DNA of 64,000 nt. Origin: Methylobacillus gramineus. GTDB lineage: Bacteria > Pseudomonadota > Gammaproteobacteria > Burkholderiales > Methylophilaceae. A program made the translations under genes and the position numbers. Below the pieces are notes generated by a model, which was not told where the DNA came from, did not search any database, and was given only the letters and a program-made list of their open reading frames with translations. The stretch is taken from positions 62,001 through 126,000 of the forward strand of contig NZ_JAJAVE010000002.1 in NCBI RefSeq assembly GCF_020532675.1. The letters run 5' to 3'. Shown here in pieces: positions 20,102 to 55,434 of this stretch (within the stretch, counting starts at the first letter, position 1; each line of letters begins with the position of its first letter).

Positions 20102-20103
20102 GA

Positions 20104-20919: not shown

Positions 20920-21581
20920 ACTGAATCTGTCCATTGATTTTCCATCATCAGCTCGGCCAATGGCCGCTCTTTCGCCCAGCCAGCCTCTACCAGCATGGGA
21001 GATGTGTAGAATTCATCGACGTAGCCCAGGCAAATGATGGCAATTGGTTTGGCTCCTGCTGGAAGATGTAGCAGTGTAGCCAGTTTTACCGGATCAAAAA
21101 TAGATACCCAGCCCATGCCTAGACCTTCCGCTCGCGCTGCCAGCCATAGGTTCTGAATCGCGCAGGCAACAGAGGCCAGATCCATTTCCGGTAGTGTGCG
21201 GCGGCCAAAAATAAAGCGCTCCCTGTTGTCACACAAGTTGGCAATCAGCAATTCACCACACTGTTTGATGCCTTCAACCTTGAGACGCAAGAATTCTGAC
21301 TCACGCTCGCCCAGTGCATGGGCGGTTTCCAACCGTTCTTCCTGCACCAGGTCATAAATTTTCTGGCGTAAGGGATCGCTGGTAATGCGGATGAAACGCC
21401 AAGGCTGCATCAAGCCTACGCTGGGAGCATGATGGGCTGCATCCAGTAGCTTGTGCAAAATCTCAGCATCGATCTTGCCAGGGCGAAAGTGGCGCATGTC
21501 GCGACGCTCCTGGATGGCGCGATATACCCCGGCCACCTGAGAATCTGGAAAAGCAAAGGGATTTTTTTCAGAGGAACTCAT
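20916..21581 (-). CDS. bluB: 5,6-dimethylbenzimidazole synthase
   Basis: A 221-residue flavin-destroying oxygen-dependent enzyme that makes the lower ligand of cobalamin from FMNH2. Nitroreductase fold with VYRAIQERRDMRHFRPG, HHAPSVGLMQPWRFI, the family-specific ERFIFGRRTLPEMD region, and GMGWVSIFDP plus LCLGYVDEF-like C-terminal strand. These patterns separate BluB from general nitroreductases. Its neighbours btuM and cobU place it in corrinoid salvage: imported cobinamide can be completed with lower ligand made here. It lies 24 nt after btuM. Confidence 0.93.
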   Translation of the reverse strand: MSSSEKNPFAFPDSQVAGVYRAIQERRDMRHFRPGKIDAEILHKLLDAAHHAPSVGLMQPWRFIRITSDPLRQKIYDLVQEERLETAHALGERESEFLRLKVEGIKQCGELLIANLCDNRERFIFGRRTLPEMDLASVACAIQNLWLAARAEGLGMGWVSIFDPVKLATLLHLPAGAKPIAIICLGYVDEFYTSPMLVEAGWAKERPLAELMMENQWTDSV

Positions 21582-21605
21582 ACTTCAAGCAAACTTAGAT
21601 GGGCT

Positions 21606-22178
21606 TTAGACACTCATGGTCCAAAGGATACGGATTTGTCGGACGAAATGCGCACCTCCCCACACCATGGCAAAGTACATCATGGAAAATCCCAGATATT
21701 CTGGCAGGTAGTTCCAGCCATGCAATAGGGTTTCATGCAGTCCATTGTTGGGGAAGCGTCCGGAAAAAAGGTAGTAGGTCTGGGTGGAAATAACGAAAGC
21801 GAGAAATGTGGTGGAGATAGTGACGAGCACATAGGGCAGCAGGGCAAAGGTATCCTGCCGCGTCGCTAGCCAGCGACCGCCCAGCCACATCACTGCGTAC
21901 GTAGGAATCATGCCCCAATAGCCATCAGTCAGGCAGAAACCCAGGTAAGGGTTAAAGGCCGCGGCACCAAAATCAATCGCGGTGGCCATCATGAAAAAGA
22001 AGATAAACCAGAGAGCACGCTGTAAAAATATCCCGCCTAGCAGAAAGATGACGGGACTGGCATCAGGCAGCGAAAAAGGAGTGAGCACATGGCTACCGCG
22101 CGTCAACAGCATAAAGAATGCCAGAATGGCTGCAATAGCCACAAACTGGACAATCTTAATCTGGGTTGGAGGTGCCAT
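21606..22178 (-). CDS. btuM: BtuM-family vitamin B12 transporter, copy 1
   Basis: A 190-residue membrane protein with about six helices. I start it at the ATG at 22178, which gives the same length as the second copy (33458-34027); an in-frame GTG at 22229 would add a hydrophobic stretch. LLTRGSHVLTPFSLPDASPVIFLLGG, in the first third, and YWGMIPTYAVMWLGGRW match that copy. Cys82 in GFCLTDGYW aligns with Cys79 there and with the essential cobalt-ligating Cys of BtuM, the solitary ECF-type transporter that decyanates B12 (family knowledge). First gene of a five-gene corrinoid salvage operon; divergent from a riboswitch-controlled receptor. Confidence 0.85.
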   Translation of the reverse strand: MAPPTQIKIVQFVAIAAILAFFMLLTRGSHVLTPFSLPDASPVIFLLGGIFLQRALWFIFFFMMATAIDFGAAAFNPYLGFCLTDGYWGMIPTYAVMWLGGRWLATRQDTFALLPYVLVTISTTFLAFVISTQTYYLFSGRFPNNGLHETLLHGWNYLPEYLGFSMMYFAMVWGGAHFVRQIRILWTMSV

Positions 22179-22358
22179 TGAAGCTAACAATATGGTTCTG
22201 TTATATAAATATAACAACCATGATAACACTGTGAGTTTAGCTCTTGAGCAAGCGAAAGCATTTTTATAGATTTATACGATAAGAAGTTGTTTCTGATATT
22301 AATATTCGTTAGCATTGCCTGCATTGTACTGTGTCGGTGCTTGCGTCACCGATAGATC
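22179..22358. other. Divergent control region, btuM operon versus riboswitch-receptor operon
   Basis: No gene is supported. It must contain promoters for both directions and holds the perfect 18-bp palindrome-like site at 22199-22216, plus a small hairpin TCGGTG/CACCGA near 22334-22351 just before the riboswitch. The sequence is AT-rich. Confidence 0.4.
22199..22216. promoter_or_regulatory. 18-bp inverted repeat, operator-like
   Basis: TGTTATAT-AA-ATATAACA is perfectly symmetric in its 8-nt arms and lies 21 bp upstream of the btuM start. The arm TGTTATA/TATAACA resembles the half-sites of Zur boxes, but the spacing is 4 rather than 1, so a different repressor, or merely a promoter -10 region, is equally possible. 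Confidence 0.4.
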
Positions 22359-22564
22359 GTGCTGGTGCCTTGTTACAAGGCTTAATGGGGAATGCGGTAA
22401 GGATGCGTCATCCAATTCCGCAGCTGTCCCTGCAACTGTGAGCGGTGAGTGAAATGTGCTGTGAGCTGGCAATGCCAAGCTCTAGCCACTGGGTGTTGAG
22501 AGAAGATCAACCTGGGAAGGCGTGCATTGAATGTTGACCCGCAAGCCAGGATACCCGCCAGCAC
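22359..22564 (+). promoter_or_regulatory. Cobalamin (AdoCbl-type) riboswitch
   Basis: Plus strand. Ordered blocks: GGTGCC, TTAATGGGGAATGCGGT, CTGTCCCTGCAACTGTGAGCGG, TAGCCACTGGGT, GGGAAGGCG and GCAAGCCAGGATACCCGCC. GTGCTGG (22359-22365) pairs with CCAGCAC (22558-22564) to close the outer stem. It lies before the 776-residue TonB receptor and is followed by about 160 nt of leader. Confidence 0.93.
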
Positions 22565-22726
22565 TGGTCGCTCTTGCCTTATTCAGGGATTGATAATGGT
22601 ACGGAAATCTTCCGTCTGGGCGACGAAAAAAGCGGCGGGGGCCGCATTGCCGTTCACTCTGGAGTCTTAGGAATCCGTGTGCGTAATCGGCTGTCCCTGC
22701 CAAATAATTGGTGTCTAGGGGAAGTC

Positions 22727-25057
22727 ATGAACATCACAGCACTGTTACCGCTTGCAATTGCGGCGACATTATTTGCTACATATGCGTTAGCCGTAGAAAC
22801 CACTCCAGCAGCTTCATCAGACCTGCAATCTACTGCCATCGCAGAAGTGCCTGCCATTGATGTCACTGGCAGTCGCACAGCCCTGCGAGATGTGCTCTCT
22901 CCAGGGGTGGTGTCAGTGGTATACCCGGATGACGTCAAGGGCGAGCATAAATCCCTGCCGGAGCTGCTGGACCAGATCCCGGGGGTCTATGTACGTCGGG
23001 TGGCGGGGACTGGGCAATATACCACCGCCAGTATTCGCGGCAGTGCACCCAGCCAGGTCAATGTCTATATCGATGGCATTCCCGTCAATACCTCCAGTGA
23101 AACCGCTGCTGATCTCTCCACCATCTCCATGTCCAATGTCGAGCGCGTTGAAGTCTATCGCGGGGTAACACCAGCACGCTTTTCCGGCGCTCCCATGGGT
23201 GGTGCAATCAATATTGTCACTAAAAAGCCAACAGGCCTAAGCGGCAGCGTGTCAGCCGGACGACGCTCATACGATGGCAAGCAGGAGAGTGCCAGCATCA
23301 CCACACCGCTGTTTGGTGGGAATCTGTTGATTGGGGTTGATGATGAGAGTAGTGAGGGGGATTTCAGGTACAAGGATTACACAGTGCAATCCTTGAATCA
23401 GATTGTGCATGGGGATGGTACGAGACCATCAACGGCTAATGTTGATGCAATCACTGGTGAACCCTACCCTGTGAATCGTAGACGTCTCAATAATAGTTTT
23501 GAGAAAAAGAATGCTCTTATTAAGTGGCAGAACCAGAAGTTAGTTGCTAAGTGGGCATACCTGGAAATGGAACGCTATTTGCCTCGTGAGATTAGTAGCA
23601 ATACTTCATATACAGATCATGCCCAAGATCTCGCATGGGTGCAGTTTGGAGAGCGTCAACGTAAACAACAGAGGCTGAACCAGAATGAGTTTTTACTAGG
23701 TTGGCGAGATAGTTTTGCCAATATGGGTGCAGGAGTTAATTTTACCTACCTTGATAAAGACCAGCGCTACCAAAATGTTGATGCTGGCGATAGTAACCCT
23801 GGCAGACGATGGATGGACTATCGCACAAAACGTTATGGTTTGTCGGGAGATCTAACTTGGGAGCTTGGACAAAATGCTTCTGTGGGTCAATTGCTGGAAT
23901 TACATGTTGATCGTTATCGTGAAACGCTTTATTCCGATATTAGTGATAATCCAGAGACTTCCGATTTTATTCCCCAATATCGGCGAGATGGAACACGTGT
24001 ACAAGCTCAGAACACTATTACGATTGCTGCGCTGGGTAATTTGCAAGTCACGCCTATTGTTCGGATGGAAAAGCTTGATGGCCCTGTGATCGGGCGTGCA
24101 TCTTCTCCACAAAGTGGACCATCCGGTAAATATGACTGGAAGCCGACAGGTAGTATTAGTCTGAAAAAGAATCTTGATACAGGTTGGCAAGTATTTAGTA
24201 GTTACGGTAATTACATTCGGTATCCGAGTTTTTATGAAATTTATGGGAATGGTTTTGATACTGTCCCCAATGCTCAGGCGGGTACCGGGGAGACTGTGCC
24301 TCTCAAGCCTGAAACTGGTCGTAATGGCGAGTTTGGTTTTGGATGGCATGGAAAGATAACAGATAGTCTCGGAGGTGATTTCAGGCTGACAATTTTTGAG
24401 CGTACGGCTAAGAATGCTATTACGCTTTATTCGGTGCCGATCGCAGCTAAATATATCAACTCAGGGGAAACCTATAATCGTGGGGTTGAAGTTGAGGGTA
24501 AATTAAGTTTTGGTCAGCGCGTCGATATTCAGTTTGCAAGCACATGGCAACAAGGATGGTACCGCGATGGGGGACTCTTTTACTATGGGGGTGCTTCAGC
24601 TCAGAGTAGGTTCCCTGATGCTGACAAGGTCAGGGTGCGTAACATGCCGGCAGTGGCTACCAATGTGCGGTTGAATCTACATTTTTTTGATGGGAGCCTG
24701 ATGACGTATATAGAAGGTAAACATACTGGCCGTCTCTATAGGGATGTGCAAAGTTGGGAAGAATCGCTCACCACTTTTGATGTTGGTACACATTACAAAA
24801 TAACTAAAGGCTGGAAGCTGTCAGCAGGTGTGAGTGACATTTTTAATCAAGGCCCTAAGCAGAAGCTAGGGGGCAGAGGAGATCAAAAACATGAGTACTC
24901 ATGGGATAGCTGCGATCCTTCTGATCCAGATTACATACTTTGCCAGTTTGGTCTTGCTCCGGGCGTTCGGTTTGATGAGGTCTATCCAATTAAAGGCAAT
25001 GTACTCTATCCGCAGCAAGGTCGTACTGCCTACTTTACTCTAGCGTATACATTTTGA
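22727..25057 (+). CDS. TonB-dependent receptor, cobalamin-regulated
   Basis: A 776-residue outer-membrane receptor. The start is the ATG at 22727, preceded by AGGGGAAG and followed by a signal peptide ending ATYALA; the same frame is open into the riboswitch but that part is not a protein. Plug motifs: EVPAIDVTGSR (TonB box region), LLDQIPGVYVRR, SIRGSAPSQVNVYIDG, RVEVYRGVTPARFSGAP and GGAINIVTKKPTG. The barrel ends AYFTLAYTF. Regulation by a cobalamin riboswitch points to a corrinoid ligand, but the sequence is only distantly like BtuB at 34144-36018. By eye the plug part is clearly more GC-rich than the barrel part from about 23370 on. Followed 90 nt later by a propeller-like gene. Confidence 0.9.
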   Translation: MNITALLPLAIAATLFATYALAVETTPAASSDLQSTAIAEVPAIDVTGSRTALRDVLSPGVVSVVYPDDVKGEHKSLPELLDQIPGVYVRRVAGTGQYTTASIRGSAPSQVNVYIDGIPVNTSSETAADLSTISMSNVERVEVYRGVTPARFSGAPMGGAINIVTKKPTGLSGSVSAGRRSYDGKQESASITTPLFGGNLLIGVDDESSEGDFRYKDYTVQSLNQIVHGDGTRPSTANVDAITGEPYPVNRRRLNNSFEKKNALIKWQNQKLVAKWAYLEMERYLPREISSNTSYTDHAQDLAWVQFGERQRKQQRLNQNEFLLGWRDSFANMGAGVNFTYLDKDQRYQNVDAGDSNPGRRWMDYRTKRYGLSGDLTWELGQNASVGQLLELHVDRYRETLYSDISDNPETSDFIPQYRRDGTRVQAQNTITIAALGNLQVTPIVRMEKLDGPVIGRASSPQSGPSGKYDWKPTGSISLKKNLDTGWQVFSSYGNYIRYPSFYEIYGNGFDTVPNAQAGTGETVPLKPETGRNGEFGFGWHGKITDSLGGDFRLTIFERTAKNAITLYSVPIAAKYINSGETYNRGVEVEGKLSFGQRVDIQFASTWQQGWYRDGGLFYYGGASAQSRFPDADKVRVRNMPAVATNVRLNLHFFDGSLMTYIEGKHTGRLYRDVQSWEESLTTFDVGTHYKITKGWKLSAGVSDIFNQGPKQKLGGRGDQKHEYSWDSCDPSDPDYILCQFGLAPGVRFDEVYPIKGNVLYPQQGRTAYFTLAYTF

Positions 25058-25147
25058 TTGAGGTTTCACCTTCTCATGCCAGAGGTAGCATACATGCGGT
25101 ACCAATAGAAAATTCTTATTCTGAGTTCATTAAAGGAGAGCAGGTAG

Positions 25148-26419
25148 ATGGCAAATACATTTTTGGCTTATAGCGTTTATTACTATGATGCATCCAATAT
25201 AGGTCGTGGTATGGCTGGTCGTATTTTGGATACTGGTAGTGCGGTAGCCGCAAGCCCTAATCTTAAAACAGGACTCAATGGCGACCCCAAGGTGGAAGGC
25301 TTTGCAGACAGTACCAATGTCTTGCGGATTGCAGTGACCGATTACGTTAATGGCGTTTCCAGGCCGGTCTCGATTTATAACGCTGTTTCTCCGACGGTTG
25401 CACCAAGCCCGGCGACTGTCACCTGGTCCAATGTAAAAAACCTCGGTGACCTGGTGAAAGTGGGCAGTTATCTGTATGCGATTGATTACGACAATGCACG
25501 CGTGGTGGAGATCAATGCGACAACCTTTGCACAAACGGGGGTCAGTTACACATTGCCTGCCAGCCTGACGCCGAGTGGCTTTGTTGCGCATGGTCAATCG
25601 CTCATCAATATAGGTGGCACGCTGTTTGGCTTATTCACTTTTGCCAATAGCGGCTGGACGACTTATGCCAATAGCCTGCTGGTGCGTTTTACCATTACCG
25701 GCGGTAGCGCAATCAGCGTGGGTGCTACTGACTACAATGCCAATCTGGCGAAAAATGCATTTGCATTTGCGAATAGTGGAAATGATCTTTATGTGACAGC
25801 GGTTGGTGGTGTGCAAGGCTCATCAGGCACGCCTAACGCTGCTTCGCGGTTGCAGAAAATTAATTACACTCTGGCTAACCTGACCACGGCGACTGTGACG
25901 GATGTGCTGAGTCCAAGTGCCACTTACCCTTACGAGTTCCGTGACATCAGCTTCAAGGGAACCACGGCCTATATCCTGATGGGCACTTATAACAGCAGCT
26001 GGCAATTGGCGGGCAAGCTGGTGAGCACAACTAACTTCACCACATTTACCACCATCAATGATTTCAGCGCTGGTGCGCCCGGCTACTTCTGGGCCGCACA
26101 ATATACTGCTGACAATGACCGCATATGGTTTGCGCGTGGCAAACAGATCCTGGTGTATGCGGCGACCAGTACCACAACCCCGGTATCTACCTTGAGCCTT
26201 ACAGCCGGCAGCTTGATCAGCACCGGTCAGCTATATGACAACCTGAATGACCTGACCTATGTGGGGGCACTGGGCACGCGGACTACACTGCGTGGGTACC
26301 GATCACCTATCCAGGTTTCTCAGTCAGCCAAAGCGGTACGAGCACGCACCATCACGGCAGGCCGTCCTGAATTGACTGAAGAAGAACAGCGTCAGTTGGA
26401 CGAAGAGTTTAGCGCTTAA
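25148..26419 (+). CDS. Propeller-like protein of unknown function next to the corrinoid receptor
   Basis: A 423-residue protein with a good ribosome site (AAAGGAGAGCAGGTAG before ATG). I do not recognise the family. Repeating beta-rich units with a tyrosine or aspartate turn, such as GSYLYAIDYDNARVVEI, GTLFGLFTFANSGW, GNDLYVTAVGG, GTTAYILMGTYNSSW and NDRIWFARGKQILVYA, suggest a six- or seven-bladed propeller. It is rich in Ser, Thr, Asn and Ala and has no Cys, as in many exported proteins, yet no signal peptide or lipobox is visible. It ends in a charged tail with LTEEEQRQLDEEF. Its place behind a riboswitch-controlled receptor recalls BtuG, the surface propeller that binds B12 in Bacteroides; homology to BtuG is not claimed. 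Confidence 0.75.
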   Translation: MANTFLAYSVYYYDASNIGRGMAGRILDTGSAVAASPNLKTGLNGDPKVEGFADSTNVLRIAVTDYVNGVSRPVSIYNAVSPTVAPSPATVTWSNVKNLGDLVKVGSYLYAIDYDNARVVEINATTFAQTGVSYTLPASLTPSGFVAHGQSLINIGGTLFGLFTFANSGWTTYANSLLVRFTITGGSAISVGATDYNANLAKNAFAFANSGNDLYVTAVGGVQGSSGTPNAASRLQKINYTLANLTTATVTDVLSPSATYPYEFRDISFKGTTAYILMGTYNSSWQLAGKLVSTTNFTTFTTINDFSAGAPGYFWAAQYTADNDRIWFARGKQILVYAATSTTTPVSTLSLTAGSLISTGQLYDNLNDLTYVGALGTRTTLRGYRSPIQVSQSAKAVRARTITAGRPELTEEEQRQLDEEFSA

Positions 26420-26433
26420 CGCAGTCATGCCCA

Positions 26434-26474
26434 CGCCATCACCCTGGCTTATCAAGTCAGGGTGATGGCGTTTT
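26434..26474 (+). terminator. Intrinsic terminator between convergent corrinoid operons
   Basis: CGCCATCACCCTG (26434-26446) and CAGGGTGATGGCG (26458-26470) form a perfect 13-bp stem with an 11-nt loop, followed by TTTT on the plus strand. It ends the receptor/propeller operon and overlaps the last codons of the convergent DUF2149 gene. Confidence 0.85.
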
Positions 26475-26768
26475 ACCTTCTGTATTTTCTATCAATACCA
26501 GTTTGCCGGTCTTGGGGTCGCGATAGACCTGTCCCACTGACTGGTAACCATTGCCCAGGTGTGAGCTTGAGCTGGCAATATCAGGGGCCTTGATTTCCTG
26601 GCCTTGCTCTATTTCCTTTGGTTTGACCAGCATGGTTTGTCCGCCAGCGCTGAGGGCGGCCAACAGGCCGCAGGCAAATACCAGCATGACATCCACCAGG
26701 TTGACCAGGCTGGCCCGTGGGTCTTCATCTTCATGGTCAAAGCGGCTGCTCAGGCGCAATTTGCTCAT
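26457..26768 (-). CDS. DUF2149 protein, ExbD/TolR-like partner
   Basis: A 103-residue protein with one membrane helix (about residues 21-42). The helix begins ASLVNLVDVMLVFACGL, which matches the ExbD/TolR pattern with the proton-carrying Asp, here Asp26. A short periplasmic part follows and reads SVGQVYRDPKTGKLVLIEN, typical of DUF2149. It overlaps the preceding channel gene by ATGA and is the last gene of the CobN-like operon. I infer that it forms a proton-driven stator with the TolQ-like protein, with the CobN-like periplasmic protein as the thing being moved or powered. Confidence 0.85.
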   Translation of the reverse strand: MSKLRLSSRFDHEDEDPRASLVNLVDVMLVFACGLLAALSAGGQTMLVKPKEIEQGQEIKAPDIASSSSHLGNGYQSVGQVYRDPKTGKLVLIENTEGKTPSP

Positions 26769-27202
26769 GATCTGGCTTCCAGTCCTTCCAGCACATCTTC
26801 ATACCAGCGACGGCGCAGCTTGCCGATTACAAGGCCGATAATGCCTGCAATCAGGCCCAGCACGGTTGCATCAAATGCCGTGGTGACGGCCTTGGCCAGT
26901 TGTGCCGGATCACCTTGTCCAAGCGCTGCCAGGCCAGGCCCGAGCGGGATGATGGTTGCCATCAGGCCCAGCATGGGCGGAATGCGGGAAAGCAGGTCTG
27001 CACGTTCCAGACGGTGTCGTGCCAGCTTGGTGACGGCGTCGATATTGCCTGAGGCGCGCATCTGGCGCAGTCCGAACAAGCGTTCACCCAGGGTAAGGCC
27101 AGCTTCCAGGACGGCGATGATGACGGAGATCACCAGAATGATAATGACAGGTTTCAATAACCAGGTAATGGCGTGATGCAAGTTATCCAGATCAAAAGGC
27201 AT
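26765..27202 (-). CDS. MotA/TolQ/ExbB-family proton channel protein
   Basis: A 145-residue inner-membrane protein with three helices: residues about 14-36 (LLKPVIIILVISVIIAVLE), 80-102 and 112-132. LGLMATIIPLGPGL and AFDATVLGLIAGIIGLVIG keep the small residues and the Thr of the ExbB/TolQ proton path. It is shorter than ExbB and lacks the large cytoplasmic loop of TolQ, as is typical of versions paired with DUF2149. It lies 41 nt after the CobN-like gene. Confidence 0.88.
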   Translation of the reverse strand: MPFDLDNLHHAITWLLKPVIIILVISVIIAVLEAGLTLGERLFGLRQMRASGNIDAVTKLARHRLERADLLSRIPPMLGLMATIIPLGPGLAALGQGDPAQLAKAVTTAFDATVLGLIAGIIGLVIGKLRRRWYEDVLEGLEARS

Positions 27203-27243
27203 AGCAGTTATTCCATATAGTTAGCTGGTGAAGGCATGGCTGG

Positions 27244-30200
27244 TTACAACCTGGGCTTGCGGGTACCAAACCATAGCCCGGCGATAAAGATGGGCAGCAA
27301 CATCAGCAGCCATTGCCAGTTGTCCTGCACAGTCTTAACGGCTATCTCATAGGCGCGGGGTTCTGCTGGTTTGGTTTCTGGTGTATTGCTTTTTTCTATA
27401 GCCGTTTTTGCCGGCGCTATCTTGGGTTTCACTTGCTCTGCTATGGGCGATTGAGCTGGCTCTTGTGTTGCAGGGCTGTTGGTATCAGCCTGGCTGGCAT
27501 AAGTTGCGGGTACTGCATCACCGCGTGCCTTGGACAAAGTCTGTTGCAATGTGTGCTGGTCGGCACTGTCCAGATATGGCATCAGCCAGTTCCACATGGG
27601 GTGATTGGGTGCTGTATGGCCACTGCCGGGTAACCCGTTTTTATTGACAAGTTTGGCCAGGTCGCTACCAAGTTGTCTTAATGTGGCTTCATCCGTGTGC
27701 CAATAGCCTTTTTCAGCAGCCACCATCATGATCGCCAGCATGTGTGCTTTGACCTGGGCGTTGTGGTCTTTTTCCAGGAATTTATCCAGGCCAAGCTTGA
27801 GTCCGTCATCCATATAGACACGCTTCACTTCGTCCCATGCCCAGTCCTTGATGATGTCGGGGCGTGTCACTTGCCAGCCCCAGAGGTTTTCCAGAAACTC
27901 CTGGCCCATGGTGCGTGCACCGGCATAACCATGTGTCATCAATGGGCGTATCCATGCGGGGTTGAGGTAACGTCCACGCAGTTCCATCAGCAGCGCTGTT
28001 TCCAATGGGTCATCACTCAGGTTATCTGCATCGGTGTGATTGAGGATACGTGCCGTGGGTCGTTTACCGGTCACGGTTTCAGTGGCCAGTGACAGGCCTC
28101 CGAGATAGTCAAAGGCATCATTGTTGTCGATGAGGCCGTATAGATTGGATGCGCGACCATGGTAGGTGTTGGTAATGCTGCCTAATGCAGTTTTGAGTAC
28201 CTCTTGCGCGGGCTGTCCCTGTGCATCCATGCCGTAAGCATGGCCCATGCGGGTCAGGTAGGCATTGCCAAGTTCATTGCGGTCTTTCCAGGTACCGGAA
28301 CGCTCTGTCAGCCGGTTGACGCCTGTACCGTAAGCACCGGGAGCATCACCGAAGATACGCCATGCAGCTTCACGGCCCGCTTGTTGTGCGGGTTGGCCAT
28401 GTTGCATATGGGCCTGGGTGCGACGTATCCATTGCAGCGCAACGCCGTTGCTCGCCAGGGGCTCACTGCCTTCCTGCAAGCTTGCAGCCAGTGGTTCCAG
28501 TGCAGTGGTCAGCGCATTGTTCAATTGCGGGTGATCGCGGCGGATCTGCTGGGCTGAGGCTGCGAGTGCCAGGCGACCCCCATTGTCTATCCACTGCATG
28601 AGGTTGGGATAGAGGTCGCGGAACAGGCCGGATGTGGTGACGATGACATCGTGCCGCGGTATATCCGGCTTGAGCTGCATTTTCTGCACAATGCCACGCG
28701 CGTTCCATTCTGGCTCTATGCCCATCAGGCTCAGGATAAAGCTAACCATGACGCCTTCATCACGTACCGCATCCGATGCCCAGAGAATGACGCCTTCACT
28801 GTCATTGACGCTATCGCGCTCACGCACCTTGGTAGCCATGCTGGCACCAATCTGGAAGCCTATCCGCGTTGGCAGGACATCGCCATCCAGTGCATGAAAG
28901 TTACGTCCTGTGGGCAGCGACTCCGGTGAACGCAAAGGGTCATTGCCCTTGCCCGGGGCAATAAAGCCGCCATCCAGTGCGTGCAGCAAGGCTTGCATTT
29001 CCAGTGCAGGAGAGGCTGCCAGCGCATCACGCGTTTTTTGGCTCACGCTGTCAGGTTGCCCACGTGCCATCGAGTCCAGCATCAATTGCAACGATTCATC
29101 CGACCACTGGCGGCCAAAGATATGCAGGCCATGGGGCATGAATTTTTCCTGCAGTTTGGTCAGGTAATGGCCAATTTCATGGGCCAGAAGATCATCGTCT
29201 GTCTGCTCATATCCAATACCACGGACTTCCAGTACATCGGCCATGCTGGCCTCAAGCTCTGCACGCAATTGCAGGGCTTCCACAAGTCGGCGCATTTCAC
29301 GCGCGGCTTCCACTTTCATGGTTTCAGAGCTTGATGATTCATAGGTCTCTACAATTTGCCGTAATTCCAGCAGCCGATCATAGAGCGGTGTGGATGTGAG
29401 GGGGGGTGTCAGGTGATCAATCATGACGGCCAGGCCTCGGCGCTTGGACTGCGTGCCTTCACCCACACCATCGACGATGTAGGGATAGATGCCGGGCAGG
29501 TCACCCGCGATGATGCGGGAGTAATCATCTGTAGCCAGCCCCACTGCCTTGCCCGGCAGAAATTCATAGGTAGAGTGGCGACCTATGTGTACCAGTGCAT
29601 CCGCCTTGAAGCTGCTTTGTAGCCAATGGTAAAACCCCAGATATTGATGTGGAGGCGGGATGGTCGTGTTGGCATGCAGTAACTCCTCATCCACTTCCCA
29701 GCCACGCGGAGGCTGCGGTCCGATGAATATATTGCCAAATTGCAGGCCTGGGATCAGCAGCTTGCGGTCATGCACCATGACTTTGCCTGGGGGCTGGCCC
29801 CAGCCTCTCAGTCCTTCTATGCCCAAACCGGCTAGCCGGGTTTTCTGCACAGTGAGTTGGCTGCAGTCCGTATGCTTGTCCAGGCATTGCAGATAGGCTT
29901 TGTTGAGCGCATCCAGTTGCTTGAGGGCATTATTACGCTCCGGGTGATCAGCGCCTTCCAGCAGGTGGCGCAGCTCGTGCATGGCCTTGTCCAGCCGGTT
30001 GCGCGCAATATCAATTTCGCCTGCTTTCTGCGCGGCTGTCAGGTCCGCATGCAGCTTGCCCAGTGGCCCCTCCACCATTTCACCGCGAACCTGCGGTGCC
30101 AGGGTAGAAAACCAGTTCATATAGGATGGCAGGTCCAGACTATTCACTTGCTGGCTCATACTTGCCAGCGCGCCATTGTCCTCAGGCAAGTTGACGCCGC

Positions 30201-31563
30201 GCTCCTGCATCAGGTCAAGCAATGCTTCTTGAGAAGCAGGCAGTGCACCGGTGGTATATCCGGCTTTTTTCAGTGCCTGCAGCATGTCAAACAGCGAAGC
30301 AGGGACATCCAGGTTGTCGGCACCGATGTTCTGGCGACCAGGCGGGTGATTGTAATAAATCAGCGCGACTTTCTTGTCCGCATTCGGCTTGGCTTGCAGC
30401 TTTTGCCAGTTAAGCACGCGTGTCACCAATGACTTGACCTCGGCAGGGAGGATTTGCGGGAGTTTCAATTCCACCCCGGTTAATTTATCCAGTGTGGCCG
30501 GGCCTGCGGCAGCGACGACGATAGGCTGTGAGCTACCCTGGATTTCAGGCATGGCCACGCGGTATTGCACCGAGTTGATCGGCAATCCATCTTCGGATAA
30601 TTGCCAGGCGGAAGCCGTGCGGTCTGTGAGTCTCATGGCTTTATACACAGGGACATCCAGTGTCTTTAGCAGCTCGGTGACAGCTTCCCGTCCCTCGGCA
30701 GCCCCGACCACAAAGTCTTGCAGTACGACCAGCCCGGTGGGGGTGGCTGGTGCCAGTAATTTTTTCAGGTTGGCAATTGCATCACGAGAAGTCTCGCCCC
30801 AGCGCGCCATGATGGTGATACATGGCATGCGACGCTGCTCGCTGGCGGCACAGATTGCATCTGCTGGTTGCGGGTCGCTGGTGCTCAAGTCCAGCACTGC
30901 CAGCATCGGCCCGGGCTGGTTATTGAGGGTTTGCTCCAGCTCCTTGCCACCACGCCGCAGTCGCAGGGTTTGTTCTGGCTGGATAGCGGGCAAGCTGGCA
31001 GCCGGATGTAGTAGCTGGCGCATGAATGTTGCCAGATTATCGTTACCACCTGCCTGCCACAGGTTATGCAATCCCAGCCACTGGCTGGCAGCCGGATGTT
31101 GCTGAGCCAGTTCTGCCACTTTTGGGGAAAGATTGTTTTGCGTCAGTGTCAGGCTTTTGGCATGTGAAAAATTGCTGACTTGCTGGCCTTGCCAGCGGCT
31201 GCGCAGTGACAGTGCGCTATCACCGTTGAAGGCAATGAAGTTCTTCGGTTTGCCTGAACCCAGTTGGTCCAGTTGTGCCTGTAATTGTTGTGAGGTTTCC
31301 GCATAAACGGCAATGGCGAATACCGCATCTGCCTGTTGTAACCAACGCTTCAGGGTGCGACTGTCGGCAGCCAGTACCTGGGATTGTGTACGCAGGATAA
31401 TCTGGTCTTTGCCCTTGCTCGCCTCAAGTGCTGTGTGAGCCGCTGTGGCAGCAGCAGGGGCTGTACGGTCTGATACCACGCCAAAAAGGGTGGCTGCTGA
31501 AGCTGGTGCGCTCAAGCAAAGCAGCAGATACAGCAGGGAAGAGCTATAGCGAAGAGTCATCAT
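27244..31563 (-). CDS. Periplasmic, membrane-anchored CobN-like chelatase
   Basis: A 1439-residue protein related to CobN, the large subunit of aerobic cobaltochelatase. The CobN-type core is clear: HIGRHSTYEFLPGKAVGL (His663), AGDLPGIYPYIVDGVGEG, then RGLAVMIDHLTPPL and IGFQIGASMATKVRERD. Classical CobN is cytosolic and works with CobS and CobT, neither seen here. This version has a signal peptide (residues 1-23, ending APASAA), a Pro/Ala/Lys-rich linker near residues 1370-1405 and a C-terminal helix WQWLLMLLPIFIAGLWF followed by a positive tail. Its core should therefore lie in the periplasm, anchored at the end. It overlaps cobB (ATGATG) and is followed by a proton-channel pair. Likely role: periplasmic metal insertion into or removal from a tetrapyrrole, or corrinoid handling. 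Confidence 0.9.
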   Translation of the reverse strand: MMTLRYSSSLLYLLLCLSAPASAATLFGVVSDRTAPAAATAAHTALEASKGKDQIILRTQSQVLAADSRTLKRWLQQADAVFAIAVYAETSQQLQAQLDQLGSGKPKNFIAFNGDSALSLRSRWQGQQVSNFSHAKSLTLTQNNLSPKVAELAQQHPAASQWLGLHNLWQAGGNDNLATFMRQLLHPAASLPAIQPEQTLRLRRGGKELEQTLNNQPGPMLAVLDLSTSDPQPADAICAASEQRRMPCITIMARWGETSRDAIANLKKLLAPATPTGLVVLQDFVVGAAEGREAVTELLKTLDVPVYKAMRLTDRTASAWQLSEDGLPINSVQYRVAMPEIQGSSQPIVVAAAGPATLDKLTGVELKLPQILPAEVKSLVTRVLNWQKLQAKPNADKKVALIYYNHPPGRQNIGADNLDVPASLFDMLQALKKAGYTTGALPASQEALLDLMQERGVNLPEDNGALASMSQQVNSLDLPSYMNWFSTLAPQVRGEMVEGPLGKLHADLTAAQKAGEIDIARNRLDKAMHELRHLLEGADHPERNNALKQLDALNKAYLQCLDKHTDCSQLTVQKTRLAGLGIEGLRGWGQPPGKVMVHDRKLLIPGLQFGNIFIGPQPPRGWEVDEELLHANTTIPPPHQYLGFYHWLQSSFKADALVHIGRHSTYEFLPGKAVGLATDDYSRIIAGDLPGIYPYIVDGVGEGTQSKRRGLAVMIDHLTPPLTSTPLYDRLLELRQIVETYESSSSETMKVEAAREMRRLVEALQLRAELEASMADVLEVRGIGYEQTDDDLLAHEIGHYLTKLQEKFMPHGLHIFGRQWSDESLQLMLDSMARGQPDSVSQKTRDALAASPALEMQALLHALDGGFIAPGKGNDPLRSPESLPTGRNFHALDGDVLPTRIGFQIGASMATKVRERDSVNDSEGVILWASDAVRDEGVMVSFILSLMGIEPEWNARGIVQKMQLKPDIPRHDVIVTTSGLFRDLYPNLMQWIDNGGRLALAASAQQIRRDHPQLNNALTTALEPLAASLQEGSEPLASNGVALQWIRRTQAHMQHGQPAQQAGREAAWRIFGDAPGAYGTGVNRLTERSGTWKDRNELGNAYLTRMGHAYGMDAQGQPAQEVLKTALGSITNTYHGRASNLYGLIDNNDAFDYLGGLSLATETVTGKRPTARILNHTDADNLSDDPLETALLMELRGRYLNPAWIRPLMTHGYAGARTMGQEFLENLWGWQVTRPDIIKDWAWDEVKRVYMDDGLKLGLDKFLEKDHNAQVKAHMLAIMMVAAEKGYWHTDEATLRQLGSDLAKLVNKNGLPGSGHTAPNHPMWNWLMPYLDSADQHTLQQTLSKARGDAVPATYASQADTNSPATQEPAQSPIAEQVKPKIAPAKTAIEKSNTPETKPAEPRAYEIAVKTVQDNWQWLLMLLPIFIAGLWFGTRKPRL

Positions 31564-32828
31564 GAAAATAAGCTGGCGATGGCGCGGGGATTGGATGGGA
31601 AATAAAAATGTAGGTAGCTTGCAGTGAGGCCACCATGGCGATAGATGGATTCGCCGGGTTTTCCTCGTTGAGTGGTGGCTGTGCTCAATGGCTCTAGTTC
31701 ACTGATGAAGCTGGAGTAATGGAAAGTGTGCGCATGCAAGCGGCCTTCTGGCAGCTCCGCGAACTGTACGCCCAGGCCCTGGAAGCGTGGTTGCATGACG
31801 GAATTGCCGGGCAAGAGCCCAAAAGTGGGAGATGCATTGATGGCCTGACTGACGGCCATCATGCCGCCACATTCAGCCAGCATGGGCATGCCGTTTTTCC
31901 ACGCTGCATGCAGAGCGCTATGCATGGCTTGGTTGCTGCTAATCTGCTCAAGATATAGCTCTGGATAACCGCCAGGCAGCCAGATGGCATCTGCATCAGG
32001 CAAGGTGTGGTCATGTAGGGGAGAGAAGAAGCGGAGAGTGGCCCCAAGTGCGCGTAGACATTCCAGATTGGCTTCGTAAATGAAACAGAACGCTTCATCT
32101 TGCGCAATCGCAATGGTTTTGCCGGCAAGCAGCGGCTCAATCGCTGATGCTACAGGAGTATTAAACTCAACCGTGGGTGGCAGTGCCAGTGAGGCGGATT
32201 CAGCCAGCATGCTGGCTGCCAAGGCAATACGAGTTTCCAGATCATGGATCTCGTTGGCGCGAAACAGGCCTAAATGGCGTTCCGGCAAGGTGAGCTCATC
32301 CTTTTTTTGTAGGGCACCCAGCCAGGCAATATGCGAGGGCAGGCTGCCTTTCAACAGGCTGGCATGATGTGGACTCCCTGTGCGGTTGGCGATGACGCCA
32401 GCGGGAATGAGCGCGGGGTAATGCGAGAGTAATCCGGCAGCAAGTGCGCCAAAGGTTTGTGCCATGCCGCTGGCGTCGATAGTGAGTGCCAAAGGCAAGT
32501 TGAATTTGACCGCAATATCCGCGCTCGATGGATTGCCGTCATAGAGCCCCATGACACCTTCGACAATGATGAGGTCGGACTGCTGTGCTGCTGCATGAAG
32601 CCTGGCTGCGATATCGGTTTCGCCACACATGGCCAGATCAAGGTTATAGACCGGTCTGCCGGTAGCGGTCTGCAAGATCATGGGATCAAGGAAGTCCGGC
32701 CCGCATTTAAACGCCTGTATTTTCAGGCCCTGGTTGCGCCAGGCTCTTGCCAGTGCTGCTGTGATAAGGGTTTTTCCCTGGTTTGAGGCTGGAGCAGATA
32801 CCAGCAGGGCGGGACAACTGACCGTCAT
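31560..32828 (-). CDS. cobB: Cobyrinate a,c-diamide synthase
   Basis: A 422-residue ATP- and glutamine-dependent amidase that makes the a and c amides of cobyrinic acid. The N-terminal P-loop domain has APASNQGKT (residues 12-20) and KCGPDFLDP; the C-terminal glutamine amidotransferase domain has WLPGGYPEL and the nucleophile loop LAECGGMMA. Start set at the ATG at 32828; a TTG at 32840 is an alternative. It overlaps the CobN-like gene by 4 nt. Its presence without the ring-building genes in this window means either that those lie elsewhere or that incomplete corrinoids are salvaged. Confidence 0.93.
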   Translation of the reverse strand: MTVSCPALLVSAPASNQGKTLITAALARAWRNQGLKIQAFKCGPDFLDPMILQTATGRPVYNLDLAMCGETDIAARLHAAAQQSDLIIVEGVMGLYDGNPSSADIAVKFNLPLALTIDASGMAQTFGALAAGLLSHYPALIPAGVIANRTGSPHHASLLKGSLPSHIAWLGALQKKDELTLPERHLGLFRANEIHDLETRIALAASMLAESASLALPPTVEFNTPVASAIEPLLAGKTIAIAQDEAFCFIYEANLECLRALGATLRFFSPLHDHTLPDADAIWLPGGYPELYLEQISSNQAMHSALHAAWKNGMPMLAECGGMMAVSQAINASPTFGLLPGNSVMQPRFQGLGVQFAELPEGRLHAHTFHYSSFISELEPLSTATTQRGKPGESIYRHGGLTASYLHFYFPSNPRAIASLFS

Positions 32829-32846
32829 GAGATCACTCAATCTGGG

Positions 32847-33461
32847 TTACCACTCAACACCAGGCATGGCCTGCACACCATTCTTGAACGCATGCTTGAC
32901 CATGGTCATGTCGGTGACGGTATCTGCGAGCTCTACCAGTTCTGGCTGTGCAGCACGGCCAGTGACAATCACGTGCTGCATGGATGGGCGCTGCGTGATA
33001 TCCGCCAGCACTTGTGACAATTCCAGGTATTTGTACTTGAGCACGATATTGAGCTCATCAAGAATGACAACGCCTACAGCAGGATCTTTTAGCGCTGCCT
33101 GCGCTGCAGCCCAGCCTTGTTGCGCTGCAGAGATATCGCGATCGCGGTTCTGCGTTTCCCAGGTGAAACCTTCTCCCATCACATGCCAGGTGACACCTGG
33201 CTGATCGCGGAAGAAAGCTTCTTCTCCTGTGTCTGAGCGGCCTTTGACAAACTGGACGACCACGGCTTTCATGCCATGGCCCAGTGCCCGTGCCAGCAGC
33301 CCAAATGCGGCAGTGGATTTGCCTTTGCCGTTACCAGTGTTTACCAGCAACAGGCCGCGTTCGACTTTGGCAGCGTCGATCTTGGCATCGACGACTGATT
33401 TTTTGCGCGCCATTCTTTCTGAATGGCGCTGATTGAGGTCAGTGTTTTTCTGCTCTGTCAT
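32847..33461 (-). CDS. cobO: Cob(I)yrinic acid a,c-diamide adenosyltransferase
   Basis: A 204-residue enzyme that attaches the adenosyl group to cob(I)alamin or its precursors (CobA/BtuR/CobO family). P-loop GNGKGKST at residues 43-50, KAVVVQFVKG, GVVILDELNIVLKYKYL, VIVTGRAAQPELVELAD and a C-terminal KHAFKNGVQA block. The start overlaps the stop of btuM copy 2 as ATGA and the end lies 18 nt before cobB. It converts imported corrinoids to the adenosyl form used by CobU. Confidence 0.95.
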   Translation of the reverse strand: MTEQKNTDLNQRHSERMARKKSVVDAKIDAAKVERGLLLVNTGNGKGKSTAAFGLLARALGHGMKAVVVQFVKGRSDTGEEAFFRDQPGVTWHVMGEGFTWETQNRDRDISAAQQGWAAAQAALKDPAVGVVILDELNIVLKYKYLELSQVLADITQRPSMQHVIVTGRAAQPELVELADTVTDMTMVKHAFKNGVQAMPGVEW

Positions 33462-34027
33462 GCCGTCTGTTTGGCATCAGATCGCAGCGCCTTCACCACA
33501 ATGTGGATGATGGCGGCAGTGGCGACATAAAATGCCAGTGTGCCTAAGTAAGATGGGTAATATTTTGCGATGCGCGGCAAGTATTCAGCCAGTGTGGGAT
33601 CCGCATAGCGACCAGACAGGAAGTAAAAACCGCCGCTGGAGAACAGGTGACACACAAAGCTGCTCGCTACGACGCTGGCGGCCAATGTGGCAATCGACTT
33701 GAATGCAAACTGGTAGTGCTTGGCAAACCAGCGACCACCCAGCCACAATGAGCCATATGCAGGAAGCAGGAAGCCATAGGCTGGCGTAGTGCAGAAATTG
33801 CTGACACCACCCCAGGTGACGGCGGCAAAGTCCAGACTGGCAGCCAAAGCCAGCAACGCTGCGAATACCCAGGCCGGACGCAGGTAAACACCTGCCAGGA
33901 AGAACACCGCCCATGAAGCGCTAGGCAAATGATTAATCGCAGCAAAGTGATGACCGCGCGTCAAAATCAGCAATGCTGCAAGCAGCAAGCCGATCAATAT
34001 CTGGTAATTTTTATTGAGTGTCAGCAT
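33458..34027 (-). CDS. btuM: BtuM-family vitamin B12 transporter, copy 2
   Basis: A 189-residue membrane protein with about six helices, with GGAG before the ATG. LTRGHHFAAINHLPSASWAVFF, in the first quarter, and YGSLWLGGRWFAKHY match the first copy at 21606-22178. Cys79 in SNFCTTPAYG is the only Cys in the first half and falls where BtuM has its cobalt-ligating cysteine (Cys80 in the studied Thiobacillus protein, from memory). Solitary BtuM proteins import B12 without an ATPase module and remove its cyanide. It lies 116 nt behind btuB and overlaps cobO, consistent with an outer-to-inner membrane B12 route. Confidence 0.87.
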   Translation of the reverse strand: MLTLNKNYQILIGLLLAALLILTRGHHFAAINHLPSASWAVFFLAGVYLRPAWVFAALLALAASLDFAAVTWGGVSNFCTTPAYGFLLPAYGSLWLGGRWFAKHYQFAFKSIATLAASVVASSFVCHLFSSGGFYFLSGRYADPTLAEYLPRIAKYYPSYLGTLAFYVATAAIIHIVVKALRSDAKQTA

Positions 34028-34143: not shown

Positions 34144-36018
34144 TTACATTGACGGCGAGAATCTTAATGACACAAACAGGTTGGTACCGTAAGTGCCATA
34201 GTCTCTTGCCAGCTCATACTTGCGGTCAAACAGGTTGTTGACACGAGCATTGAGTGACCAGTCGTCATTGATGCGATAGTTGGTGTAGAAGTTGACCAAG
34301 GTATAGCCCGACATGCGCACAGTATTTTCAGCATCGTTGTAACGTGCACCAGAGGATTGAATTTCACCACCCAAATCCCACGCGTTAAAATTCTTGCTGA
34401 TTGAAATAAAGCCATGCTCTTTGGCCCTGCGTGGTAGCAAATTACCATTTGCTTCATTCTCAGGGCGTTGGAAATCAGCATTGGCAGCCAGTTTGAAGCC
34501 AGCAAGTGAGGTGCGGAAGTTGAGGGTCAGTCCACGAAGCACAGCTTGGTCGATATTGATTGTTTGCAGGAGTGTGCGTGTGCCGGTACGGCTGATCAGG
34601 TTATCCACTTCATTGTGATAATAGGTAGCACTGACGAAATCACGACCATTATCGTATTGCAATCCAATTTCCTTATTGCGTGACTCTTCAGGTTTAAGGT
34701 TTGGGTTGCTGAGATAGGTAATGCCCTGAAGAATGCTAGTCGGTGAATAAAGCTGGTTGAAGGTGGGTGCCGCAAATGCCGTGCCTATACTTGCACTGGC
34801 TTTTAATGTGGATGTGATCTGATAGGCATAACCCGCATTGCCAGTGGTTTTATTGCCAAACTGGGAGTTGTCGTCATTGCGTAGATTGACTTGGAAACCA
34901 TGCTTGTCAATACGCTTTTGCCAGCCCGCAAAATAGGACTGAATATCCCGTTCGTTGACAAGTAATGGGGTGGTCGCATTGCTATCTGCTTTTTGTTCTC
35001 GCCTCTCAACACCAAGGTTTACCAAGCCGATGGGAGTCGTCAGGGTGTTCTGCCACAAATATTGGTCCTGAGTAGTCTTGAATGTACTTTCAGAGGTGGA
35101 TGTAGGCCTTTTCGTAAATGAAGACAGATCATCAGTGCTTTTTGAAAAACTCAATAAGCTTGTCCAATATTGATTGAATCGGTTTTTGCTGTGCACGGTA
35201 TAACTGGACAGGGTTTGATCCAGAAAGTAATCATAACGAGAGGTTGTGGCTGTGCTACCTGAATCGTTGAAACTACGGCTATCGGTGACGAGTACATTGA
35301 GCCCGATCTCATCATTTTCTGAGAGGTGCTGTGTGATTTTTGCAGAGATGTTCTGGTTGCGATATCCATCAGTATCTGAATTGTATGCACGGTTCGTTTT
35401 GTTTTTGATGGTGCTGATGCCATTTACATGGACTGCTCCGCCCTGCAGGCTATAACTGGTGTTGTTGATCCTGCCGTTTACGCCAGCTTCACCAATGGCG
35501 GTACCATAGTTGCCCAGGCCAACTGAAGCGTTGAATTTAGGGCTACCTTTTCCAGATTTGGTGAAAATTTGAATCACTCCACCGATGGCATCAGCCCCGT
35601 ACATGCTGCTAGCAGGTCCACGCAGAATTTCAACACGTTCAATTTGACTCAAGGGGATATGCTGTATCGCAGTTTCCCCAGTAGTAGCTGAACTGATGCG
35701 TACCCCATCCACCAAGATCAAGGTATGTGTTGGATTGGTACCACGGATGTAAATGTTGGTGGATTTTCCTACTCCGCCATTGCTGGAAGTTTCAATGCCT
35801 GGTTGCATGGCTAATAACTCGACCAGAGTAGTTTGCCCGGCTTTTTGAATCTGCTCTTCTGTGATAATTGAGATATCACCAATCACGTCGGTGACTTTTT
35901 GTTCTGCCCGGGATGCCGTAACGACGGTATCTTCCAGTCTGGTATCCGCAGCTTGCGCGGTAATCGATGTTGAGAATATTGAAGCGAGGGCGATGGTGCC
36001 CACTGAAAAACGAAACAT
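34144..36018 (-). CDS. btuB: Vitamin B12 TonB-dependent receptor
   Basis: A 624-residue receptor of BtuB size. Start at the ATG at 36018, with AGGAG 9 nt upstream and a signal peptide ending AQAA; an in-frame TTG further up was rejected. TonB box EDTVVTA (residues 29-35) is close to that of enterobacterial BtuB. Plug motifs LLAMQPGIETSSNGG, YIRGTNPTHTLILVDG and RVEILRGPASSMYGADAIGG. The barrel ends NLFVSLRFSPSM, unusual because the terminal aromatic is four residues from the end. First gene after a cobalamin riboswitch, followed by btuM, cobO and cobB, so the ligand assignment is strong. Confidence 0.93.
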   Translation of the reverse strand: MFRFSVGTIALASIFSTSITAQAADTRLEDTVVTASRAEQKVTDVIGDISIITEEQIQKAGQTTLVELLAMQPGIETSSNGGVGKSTNIYIRGTNPTHTLILVDGVRISSATTGETAIQHIPLSQIERVEILRGPASSMYGADAIGGVIQIFTKSGKGSPKFNASVGLGNYGTAIGEAGVNGRINNTSYSLQGGAVHVNGISTIKNKTNRAYNSDTDGYRNQNISAKITQHLSENDEIGLNVLVTDSRSFNDSGSTATTSRYDYFLDQTLSSYTVHSKNRFNQYWTSLLSFSKSTDDLSSFTKRPTSTSESTFKTTQDQYLWQNTLTTPIGLVNLGVERREQKADSNATTPLLVNERDIQSYFAGWQKRIDKHGFQVNLRNDDNSQFGNKTTGNAGYAYQITSTLKASASIGTAFAAPTFNQLYSPTSILQGITYLSNPNLKPEESRNKEIGLQYDNGRDFVSATYYHNEVDNLISRTGTRTLLQTINIDQAVLRGLTLNFRTSLAGFKLAANADFQRPENEANGNLLPRRAKEHGFISISKNFNAWDLGGEIQSSGARYNDAENTVRMSGYTLVNFYTNYRINDDWSLNARVNNLFDRKYELARDYGTYGTNLFVSLRFSPSM

Positions 36019-36149
36019 GACTGCAAACTCCTGAAGCAATAGCGTCCCCGCAATTGCTGATATATGAATGGAGTGTGCAGGGGCATAGCCATGAGCAACG
36101 GGCGACCGTCATCATTAGGCAGGCTGCATCCCCGCAGCACATCCTTTTT

Positions 36150-36350
36150 CATTTCCAGGCCGGTCTCCGGACTTGCAATATGCACGCTATCGCCTTCCCA
36201 TGATGGATATCACAGTGGCATGAGGATAGAGTGTGAATTGCTTACCGTTGCGGGGGCAGTACAGGAATGGTTCGGCTCTTTGACTGAACGCACCTGTTTC
36301 CCAGTTTCACCTTGACCACGGAATCGTGGATGAGGCACCTAGAAACTTGG
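36150..36350 (-). promoter_or_regulatory. Cobalamin (AdoCbl-type) riboswitch
   Basis: Minus strand. In order: GGTGCC, CTGGGAAACAGGTGCG, the core CTGCCCCCGCAACGGTAA, ATGCCACTGTGATATCC, GGGAAGGCG and GTCCGGAGACCGGCC. The outer limits are approximate. It stands about 130 nt before btuB and controls the operon running to 26457. The open frames read from its plus strand are not genes. Confidence 0.93.
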
Positions 36351-36473
36351 CCAGATTATAATGGATTCGATGCTTAGAGGGTAAAATAAGTTTCAGATAT
36401 AAGATGTTGTAATCACGTCATAAATCCTGAACTTTAGTTGACCGGTTGCAGATTTTGCAATTATAGTGGCGCC

Positions 36474-55242: not shown

Positions 55243-55252
55243 GCAGGTTCTA

Positions 55253-55294
55253 CCGAGGAACGTTGCAAGGACGAAACTCAATCCCCAGGCTCGG
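55253..55294 (+). promoter_or_regulatory. S-adenosylhomocysteine riboswitch (core)
   Basis: CCGAGGAACGTTGCAAGG at 55253-55270 and CCAGGCTCGG at 55285-55294 pair as in the SAH riboswitch: CCGAG/CTCGG closes the core and GTTGC belongs to the ligand pocket. The following leader to 55420 could supply the expression platform, including a GGCGTTCACC/GGTGAA pairing. By family knowledge, SAH turns ahcY on. Confidence 0.9.
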
Positions 55295-55434
55295 TTGGCG
55301 AAAGTTTGACTTTCGTAGAACGGCGTTCACCAGACTAACTCGTGCCGGACACGGGATGATGGTGAAAATGTCGCAACTGCCACCTCAGTACCTCTCCCTG
55401 CCGGCCACACTCAATCTTTTTAAGGATGAATATT

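Follow-up and report, generated by a model that had tools for sequence, protein, structure and literature searches.

A predicted periplasmic CobN-like protein with ExbB and DUF2149 partners in a cobalamin-riboswitch operon of Methylobacillus gramineus: a possible corrin chelatase

The window analysed here, 64,000 nucleotides (nt) of Methylobacillus gramineus (assembly GCF_020532675.1, contig NZ_JAJAVE010000002.1, positions 62,001 to 126,000), a methanol user, carries on its minus strand an operon with the gene order riboswitch-btuB-btuM-cobO-cobB-btuS-exbB-DUF2149. btuS is the name used here for a cobN-like gene (BtuS1 of Bacteroides fragilis was compared by description only). The best overall explanation for its product is a corrin-specific class-I chelatase of the periplasm, probably inserting cobalt and perhaps driven by the proton gradient, an account to which we give slightly less than even weight. 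A corrin substrate is well favoured, cobalt is the most likely metal, and insertion rather than removal of that metal is an evenly poised call. The three genes at the centre of this account are (window coordinates, strand in brackets):

27244..31563 (-): btuS, predicted exported, C-terminally anchored CobN-like class-I chelatase, 1439 amino acids (Pfam, clade, active-site residues, topology by eye)
26765..27202 (-): ExbB-like proton-channel subunit, 145 amino acids (PF01618, MotA_ExbB, 2.7e-8)
26457..26768 (-): DUF2149 protein, 103 amino acids, ExbD-like membrane helix with Asp26 (PF09919, 1.6e-9, above cut-off)

BtuS matches PF02514 (CobN-Mg_chel; 1.1e-242, 808.7 bits, cut-off 24.5) and reaches the cut-off of none of the NCBIfam models for CobN and BchH (best 615.2 bits, against CobN cut-offs of 822 to 1926); its best match in the Protein Data Bank (PDB) is HmuS (6.3e-110). 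The N-terminus (MMTLRYSSSLLYLLLCLSAPASA/A) resembles a Sec signal peptide and WLLMLLPIFIAGLWFG, close to the C-terminus, a single membrane helix, both as judged by eye and in agreement with a crude hydropathy scan. The protein ends in a Pro/Ala/Glu/Lys-rich linker (~60 residues), this one hydrophobic helix and then basic residues. Given the signal peptide and the C-terminal helix, the chelatase body is expected on the periplasmic side, and the preliminary description of a periplasm-facing CobN homologue with both features is thus supported at the level of sequence. This layout presumably resembles TonB in reverse, a rigid linker joining the periplasmic body to a membrane helix that could dock in an ExbB-type channel. 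Relatives were the best 80 full-length proteins (44-81% identity) of at least 491 confirmed in a collection of named genomes, and come from Beta- and Gammaproteobacteria, Nitrospirota and Nitrospinota. The tail helix is found in 77/86 aligned BtuS rows, with a median linker of 59 residues (69% P/A/E/K/Q/S/T). The nine rows without a clear helix are six from Marinobacter, L061 and L089 (cut or broken), and L053, which has the ExbB/DUF2149 pair and a weak 38-residue tail. A crude N-terminal scan flagged 66/87 rows, a figure that is not a signal-peptide count, many open reading frames (ORFs) being read from upstream starts.

A tree of 80 rows (BtuS 41, cytosolic CobN 10, BchH 8, PA1923-like 19, HmuS 2, the last being PDB 9d26 and L129) placed each of the five groups on one side of a branch with full support (100 in the Shimodaira-Hasegawa-like approximate likelihood ratio test, SH-aLRT). 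Four copies from the genus were left out of the alignment, L025, L026 and L029 as near-duplicates and L028 as broken; for the tree the fragment L127 was also omitted and BtuS rows were thinned to 41. The label 'PA1923-like' was given by resemblance, not by placing PA1923 itself. In a midpoint drawing of this unrooted tree the exported types group together, BtuS among them (98). A position inside classical CobN, named beforehand as the phylogeny that would speak against the preliminary reading, did not emerge, as BtuS forms a clade of its own. In the tree L129, from the genome of L069 (Pseudomaricurvus alkylphenolicus), is an HmuS-like protein outside Bacteroidota that forms a fully supported pair with PDB 9d26.

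The M. gramineus genome has a single PF02514 gene. A genome-wide search found no CobT at E<=10, and the best match to the ChlID/CobST-type model TIGR02442 reached 25.5 bits over 61 positions (cut-off 779). The earlier remark that no CobS or CobT was visible therefore stands for CobT and extends to a ChlID-type motor; the CobS model (TIGR01650) was not searched for. A classical CobN served by a distant CobST was rejected on the single PF02514 gene, the separate clade, the sub-cut-off CobN scores and the failure to find CobT or a ChlID-type motor.

Fifteen chosen active-site positions were compared between 86 BtuS and 11 CobN rows and the other groups. The His conserved across the superfamily corresponds to H538 of HmuS, as described in PMC12583661. 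The residue before it is Arg in 86/86 BtuS rows, Lys in 11/11 CobN rows and Thr in 29/29 BchH, PA1923-like and HmuS rows. Every BtuS and CobN row has Asp1146, as does 1/28 of the readable others (1/19 PA1923-like), and the site of HmuS His1209 is Asp1149 in all BtuS (86/86) and CobN rows. None of the 86 BtuS rows departs from the active-site His, Glu and Asp. At the first His of the HxGRH motif (residue 659 of BtuS in the window) 10/86 rows, from Marinobacter and Halomonadaceae (L080, L082, L087, L090, L092, L099, L106, L107, L109, L110), have Tyr. The positions matching CobN (Arg/Lys before the His, Asp1146 and Asp1149) would point to a corrin rather than a porphyrin as substrate.

The ExbB-like protein belongs to the MotA/TolQ/ExbB family (PF01618, 34.1 bits, cut-off 22.9), with T83 and T113 conserved in 74/76 homologues. 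The DUF2149 protein has one helix, in which D26, within NLVDVMLVFACGL, is conserved in 75/75 aligned homologues; the preliminary description, a TolQ/ExbB-like channel and a DUF2149 protein with an ExbD-type Asp after the cobN-like gene, was borne out by the Pfam matches and this conservation. A small 9-sequence DUF2149 profile retrieved no ExbD chain at E<=10, and a single-sequence fold of the protein gave a low-confidence model (pLDDT, the predicted local distance difference test score, 63.8). The M. gramineus genome has one DUF2149 gene. Among the best 80 relatives, ExbB and DUF2149 genes lie downstream of btuS in 72 loci; the remaining eight are L061 and L077, at contig ends, and six Marinobacter loci (L080, L082, L090, L092, L106, L109). 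BtuS of these six lacks the linker and tail helix as well as the pair, ending ~27 residues past the aligned body, and btuB lies directly upstream in all; in L082, L092 and L106, btuF-, btuC- and btuD-like genes follow (by eye). Halomonadaceae, the sister group of Marinobacter in the BtuS tree, has btuB, tail helix and pair. Marinobacter is thus a natural experiment on what the pair does, one event of joint loss of helix and pair with retention of the receptor, which indicates that the pair tracks the anchored chelatase, not the receptor. This joint loss counts for a BtuS powered by the proton gradient through the pair, and the survival of pair-less copies counts against it; on balance, such a drive could equally well hold or fail.

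A competing reading, tentative in our estimate and compatible with any role for BtuS, is that the pair energises the TonB-dependent B12 receptor and BtuS works independently of it. This would follow the view of HmuU/HmuV as powering a receptor (PMC12583661, PMC10100974), set beside a possible effect of theirs on HmuS activity suggested in PMC13227078. It gains from the btuB-like genes in 37/80 loci and from a TonB gene upstream of btuS in one genome (G179), and is opposed by Marinobacter, which keeps btuB by btuS yet has lost helix and pair together. Also against it, a TonB profile matched in 1/88 loci, and of the 23 loci where btuS directly follows its riboswitch, two had a same-strand receptor match in the next 5 kb downstream (a one-sequence search that may miss receptors). 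A further point against it is the presence of DUF2149 in one of 14 control genomes, that of Methanosarcina acetivorans, which presumably has no outer membrane.

The rest of the operon belongs to B12 uptake and completion, upstream of btuS:

36141..36357 (-): cobalamin riboswitch, operon head (Rfam RF00174, 102.6 bits, full model)
34144..36039 (-): btuB-type TonB-dependent receptor, TTG start as listed (TIGR01779 TonB-B12, 8.1e-129; Pfam)
33458..34027 (-): btuM, inner-membrane corrinoid transporter (phmmer 7e-54, residues 2-181, PDB 8c7p 'Cobalamin ABC transporter')
32847..33461 (-): cobO, corrinoid adenosyltransferase (PRK05986 and TIGR00708, above cut-off)
31560..32840 (-): cobB, cobyrinic/hydrogenobyrinic acid a,c-diamide synthase, TTG start as listed (PRK01077, 405.8 bits, cut-off 254)

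The btuB product scores 430.9 bits against TIGR01779, under the cut-off of 599.7, and its Pfam receptor and plug domains pass theirs; the name BtuM for the 33458..34027 product is our assumption. Overlaps of 4 nt at btuM/cobO, cobB/btuS and exbB/DUF2149 fit a single transcript. The riboswitch match and the gene matches confirmed the proposed cobalamin-riboswitch operon with btuB, btuM, cobO and cobB. The seven-gene order is kept in all six related genomes that have the gene (five of the same genus, one of the same family). In one of the same genus (G002, locus L028) btuB, btuM, cobB and the last part of btuS are broken up across several reading frames, which may be sequencing error or decay. 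Elsewhere in the family full-length btuS is patchy, found in 1/19 sampled genomes of other genera and missing from 18/19.

Riboswitch control extends to the relatives. In genomes of 50 of the 80 loci, chosen for spread, a same-strand cobalamin riboswitch lies upstream of btuS on the same contig in at least 47, up to 7.9 kb from the match start, and in 23 it is within 320 nt of btuS. Genes under cobalamin riboswitches are expressed when B12 is scarce, so BtuS would be made under B12 shortage.

By the marker CbiC (corrin-ring synthesis), absent from 46/51 btuS carriers and present in 5/51, most carriers are salvagers. Neither CbiC nor CbiX was found in the M. gramineus genome. Methylovorus mays, also without CbiC, has CobO and CobB before btuS and BluB, CobU, CobQ, CbiB, CobD, CobC, CobS and CobT beside it, so that the whole post-ring part of the pathway is kept. 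A BtuS limited to de novo synthesis was ruled out by the absence of CbiC from these 46/51 carriers and from 7/10 carriers in a class sample of 274 genomes. That sample held 10 genomes with the BtuS type (>1000 bits, M. gramineus included), 29 with CbiC and three (G211, G326, G179) with both.

In these three genomes btuS-exbB-DUF2149 heads a one-strand cluster with cobO, cobB, cbiD, cobG, cobH, cobI, cobJ and cobL; bluB is present in two and cobM was seen in two (the third stretch ends early), and cobK is on the opposite strand. A cobalamin riboswitch immediately precedes btuS in 2/3. CobG, over cut-off in all three, is a marker of the aerobic route, which builds a metal-free ring and has CobNST add the cobalt at a late intermediate, hydrogenobyrinic acid a,c-diamide (PMC7689651). 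CobG is noisy across the class, with matches at 1e-10 in 117/274 genomes; seven pass the cut-off, four of them without CbiC. No second CobN-family match was seen among the candidates scored (2/2 in G211, 2/5 each in G326 and G179), and it is as if BtuS performs the late cobalt insertion in these clusters. In Zhongshania marina (L097, genome G077), where all candidates were scored, CobG is over cut-off and BtuS is the sole PF02514 gene; no CbiX was found and the ChlID motor model reached at best 50.8 bits. The same searches in Azotobacter chroococcum (G067), the positive control, gave CobN and a 337.7-bit ChlID match near CbiC. The CbiC-bearing carriers G048, G049 and G080 use CbiX. The earlier alternative of pulling metal from a corrinoid or inserting it is narrowed toward insertion by the aerobic clusters, where no other late chelatase was seen.

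Between cbiD and cobG, all three aerobic clusters carry an ABC-2 exporter pair on the minus strand (L144, 4908-6583; L145, 6791-8472; L146, 6691-8381), which could export the metal-free ring; the Zhongshania cluster stretch has none. A PduO-type adenosyltransferase and a TonB gene lie upstream of btuS in L146 (18064-19491, minus strand).

Salvage, riboswitch, active site and aerobic clusters together make a cobalt-inserting periplasmic corrin chelatase the simplest account. Under B12 shortage the riboswitch would permit expression of the operon and BtuB would deliver corrinoids to the periplasm. The exported body of BtuS, tethered by linker and C-terminal helix to the inner-membrane ExbB/DUF2149 pair, would act there on the ring, most likely placing cobalt into metal-free rings of the hydrogenobyrinic-acid type. 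Acting via the linker, the pair would do with protons what the CobST motor does with ATP. BtuM (or BtuFCD) would then move the product inward for completion by CobB, CobO and late enzymes; salvagers would use BtuS on metal-free or unfinished corrinoids admitted by BtuB. A bolder version, which we put forward as doubtful, has BtuS-ExbB-DUF2149 as a periplasmic proton-driven cobaltochelatase replacing CobNST, which completes metal-free corrins acquired from neighbours and, in some aerobic producers, inserts cobalt late, after export of the ring (perhaps by the ABC-2 pair) and before its re-uptake.

Several observations weigh against periplasmic cobalt insertion by BtuS. Its function as a chelatase is read from sequence and gene context, and its closest assayed relative, HmuS, takes metal out (PMC12583661). 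In the unrooted tree BtuS is not adjacent to CobN; Asp1149 also occurs in 15/19 PA1923-like rows, and positions 1139/1140/1142, N, R and H in CobN, are S, mostly N, and Y in BtuS, as in PA1923-like proteins. Since Marinobacter retains a BtuS that has neither helix nor pair, the pair is dispensable in some cases. In de novo makers a periplasmic step demands export and re-import of the ring. BtuS carriers are not poorer in CbiC than the class (3/10 versus 26/264), and a cytosolic CobN accompanies BtuS in 2/51 carriers (L114, L127), so the two are not exclusive. BtuS of G211, G326 and G179 forms one subclade, hence few independent events; a second CobN could hide among the unscored candidates of G326 or G179, and although no CbiX reached cut-off in the three genomes, CbiK and CobT were not searched for there.

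That BtuS is instead an HmuS-like de-chelatase, stripping cobalt or a wrong metal from imported corrinoids in the periplasm, we consider unlikely. HmuS, its best PDB match, is reported to take iron from heme (PMC12583661), the gene trio is the same, and the prevalence of salvagers by the CbiC marker suits such a role. Set against this, His1209 of HmuS is replaced by Asp in 86/86 BtuS rows, the aerobic clusters would be left without a late chelatase, and the riboswitch implies expression at low B12, when destroying corrinoids would be of no help to an auxotroph. Clade, active site and neighbouring genes likewise make heme de-chelation, if simply carried over from HmuS, less likely.

A carrier role, in which BtuS binds periplasmic corrinoids and passes them to BtuM or BtuCD, seems about as improbable as de-chelation. 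The operon has BtuM and no periplasmic binding protein of its own, and chelatase heads look like binding proteins (PMC12583661); a pure carrier is nevertheless at odds with the invariant active-site His, Glu and Asp, with the binding-protein-like and transporter genes next to btuS in three Marinobacter loci (by eye) and with a separate BtuF-like gene in the window. Although the exported relatives of known substrate act on heme (HmuS, PMC12583661), an enzyme for heme or another porphyrin that is simply located in a B12 operon is very unlikely, as neighbours and riboswitch belong to B12 and Arg662 and Asp1146 were not found in the porphyrin groups.

The noted resemblance to Hmu systems holds for the kinship of the trio (an ExbB-like HmuU and a DUF2149 last hmu gene) and fails for identity with HmuS, given the separate clade and three active-site positions that match CobN. 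HmuU is ExbB-like, and in P. gingivalis and P. intermedia the hmu genes end with one annotated as DUF2149 (PMC10434189). HmuS with HmuU/HmuV of Bacteroidota likewise has a signal peptide, a C-terminal helix and ExbB-like and DUF2149 partners (PMC13227078, PMC10434189), but belongs to another clade, its Thr537 and His1209 being Arg and Asp in BtuS; its structure has been solved and its activity assayed (PMC12583661). Hmu operons are described as iron-regulated (PMC10434189), unlike that in the window, and HmuY and HmuT are not among the genes of the latter; some hmu-like operons of Bacteroides are preceded by a cobalamin riboswitch (PMC10100974). PA1922-PA1925 of Pseudomonas aeruginosa similarly has a receptor, CobN-like, ExbB/D-like and DUF2149 proteins in a row, but is placed in the zinc (Zur) regulon (both PMC9431628, PMC4542158), and the PA1923-like group has Thr at 662 in 19/19 rows and Asp1146 in 1/19.

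CobN of CobNST shares with BtuS the class-I body, Asp1146, Asp1149 and a basic side chain just ahead of the conserved His, and differs in that BtuS is predicted to be exported and anchored, forms a separate clade, has other residues at 1139/1140/1142 and comes from a genome in which no CobT/ChlID-type motor was found. To our knowledge, the class-I metal insertases CobN and ChlH depend on an AAA+ ATPase and operate in the cytosol or in the plastid stroma. CobNST itself is described as a cytosolic insertase with an AAA+ ATPase (PMC7689651). If the proposed role is true, a cofactor could be metallated outside the cytoplasm, and an ExbB-type motor could drive an enzyme and not just an outer-membrane receptor. 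It would also explain some aerobic B12 clusters without CobNST, point to an ability of many B12 auxotrophs to use metal-free or unfinished corrinoids, and offer a testable job for HmuU/HmuV, called uncharacterised in PMC13227078.

BtuS as a third CobN type (BtuS1/BtuS2 of B. fragilis) is credited by PMC6460266 to Rodionov et al. 2003. By that second-hand definition, the window gene belongs to the type, being a CobN relative that is distinct from CobN and ChlH and lies among salvage genes under B12 control; the B. fragilis proteins differ in having been tested for heme iron, BtuS2 being HmuS. No work on this proteobacterial BtuS clade or on periplasmic cobalt insertion was found in the parts of open-licence papers available. 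The BtuS/HmuS kind is thus already known; the corrin variant and the pathway evidence look new.

Other B12-related elements are present in the window. A second cobalamin riboswitch, in the 22346-26419 region (plus strand), heads a TonB-dependent receptor (22574-25057). It is accompanied at 25148-26419 (plus strand) by a 423-amino-acid repeat-like protein with no Pfam match, beta-propeller-like by eye, which may be a capture protein of the BtuG type. A third cobalamin riboswitch (5270-5058, minus strand, 136 bits) precedes two TonB-dependent receptors (2756-4846 and 606-2690). The 19556-22229 region (minus strand) encodes a BtuM paralogue (~34% identity to the first), a nitroreductase-family protein (BluB by synteny), the BtuF-like binding protein mentioned above (20104-20934) and CobU. 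An S-adenosylhomocysteine (SAH) riboswitch (55249-55335, plus strand, 43.2 bits) lies just upstream of a 469-amino-acid ORF (55426-56835), probably an SAH hydrolase.

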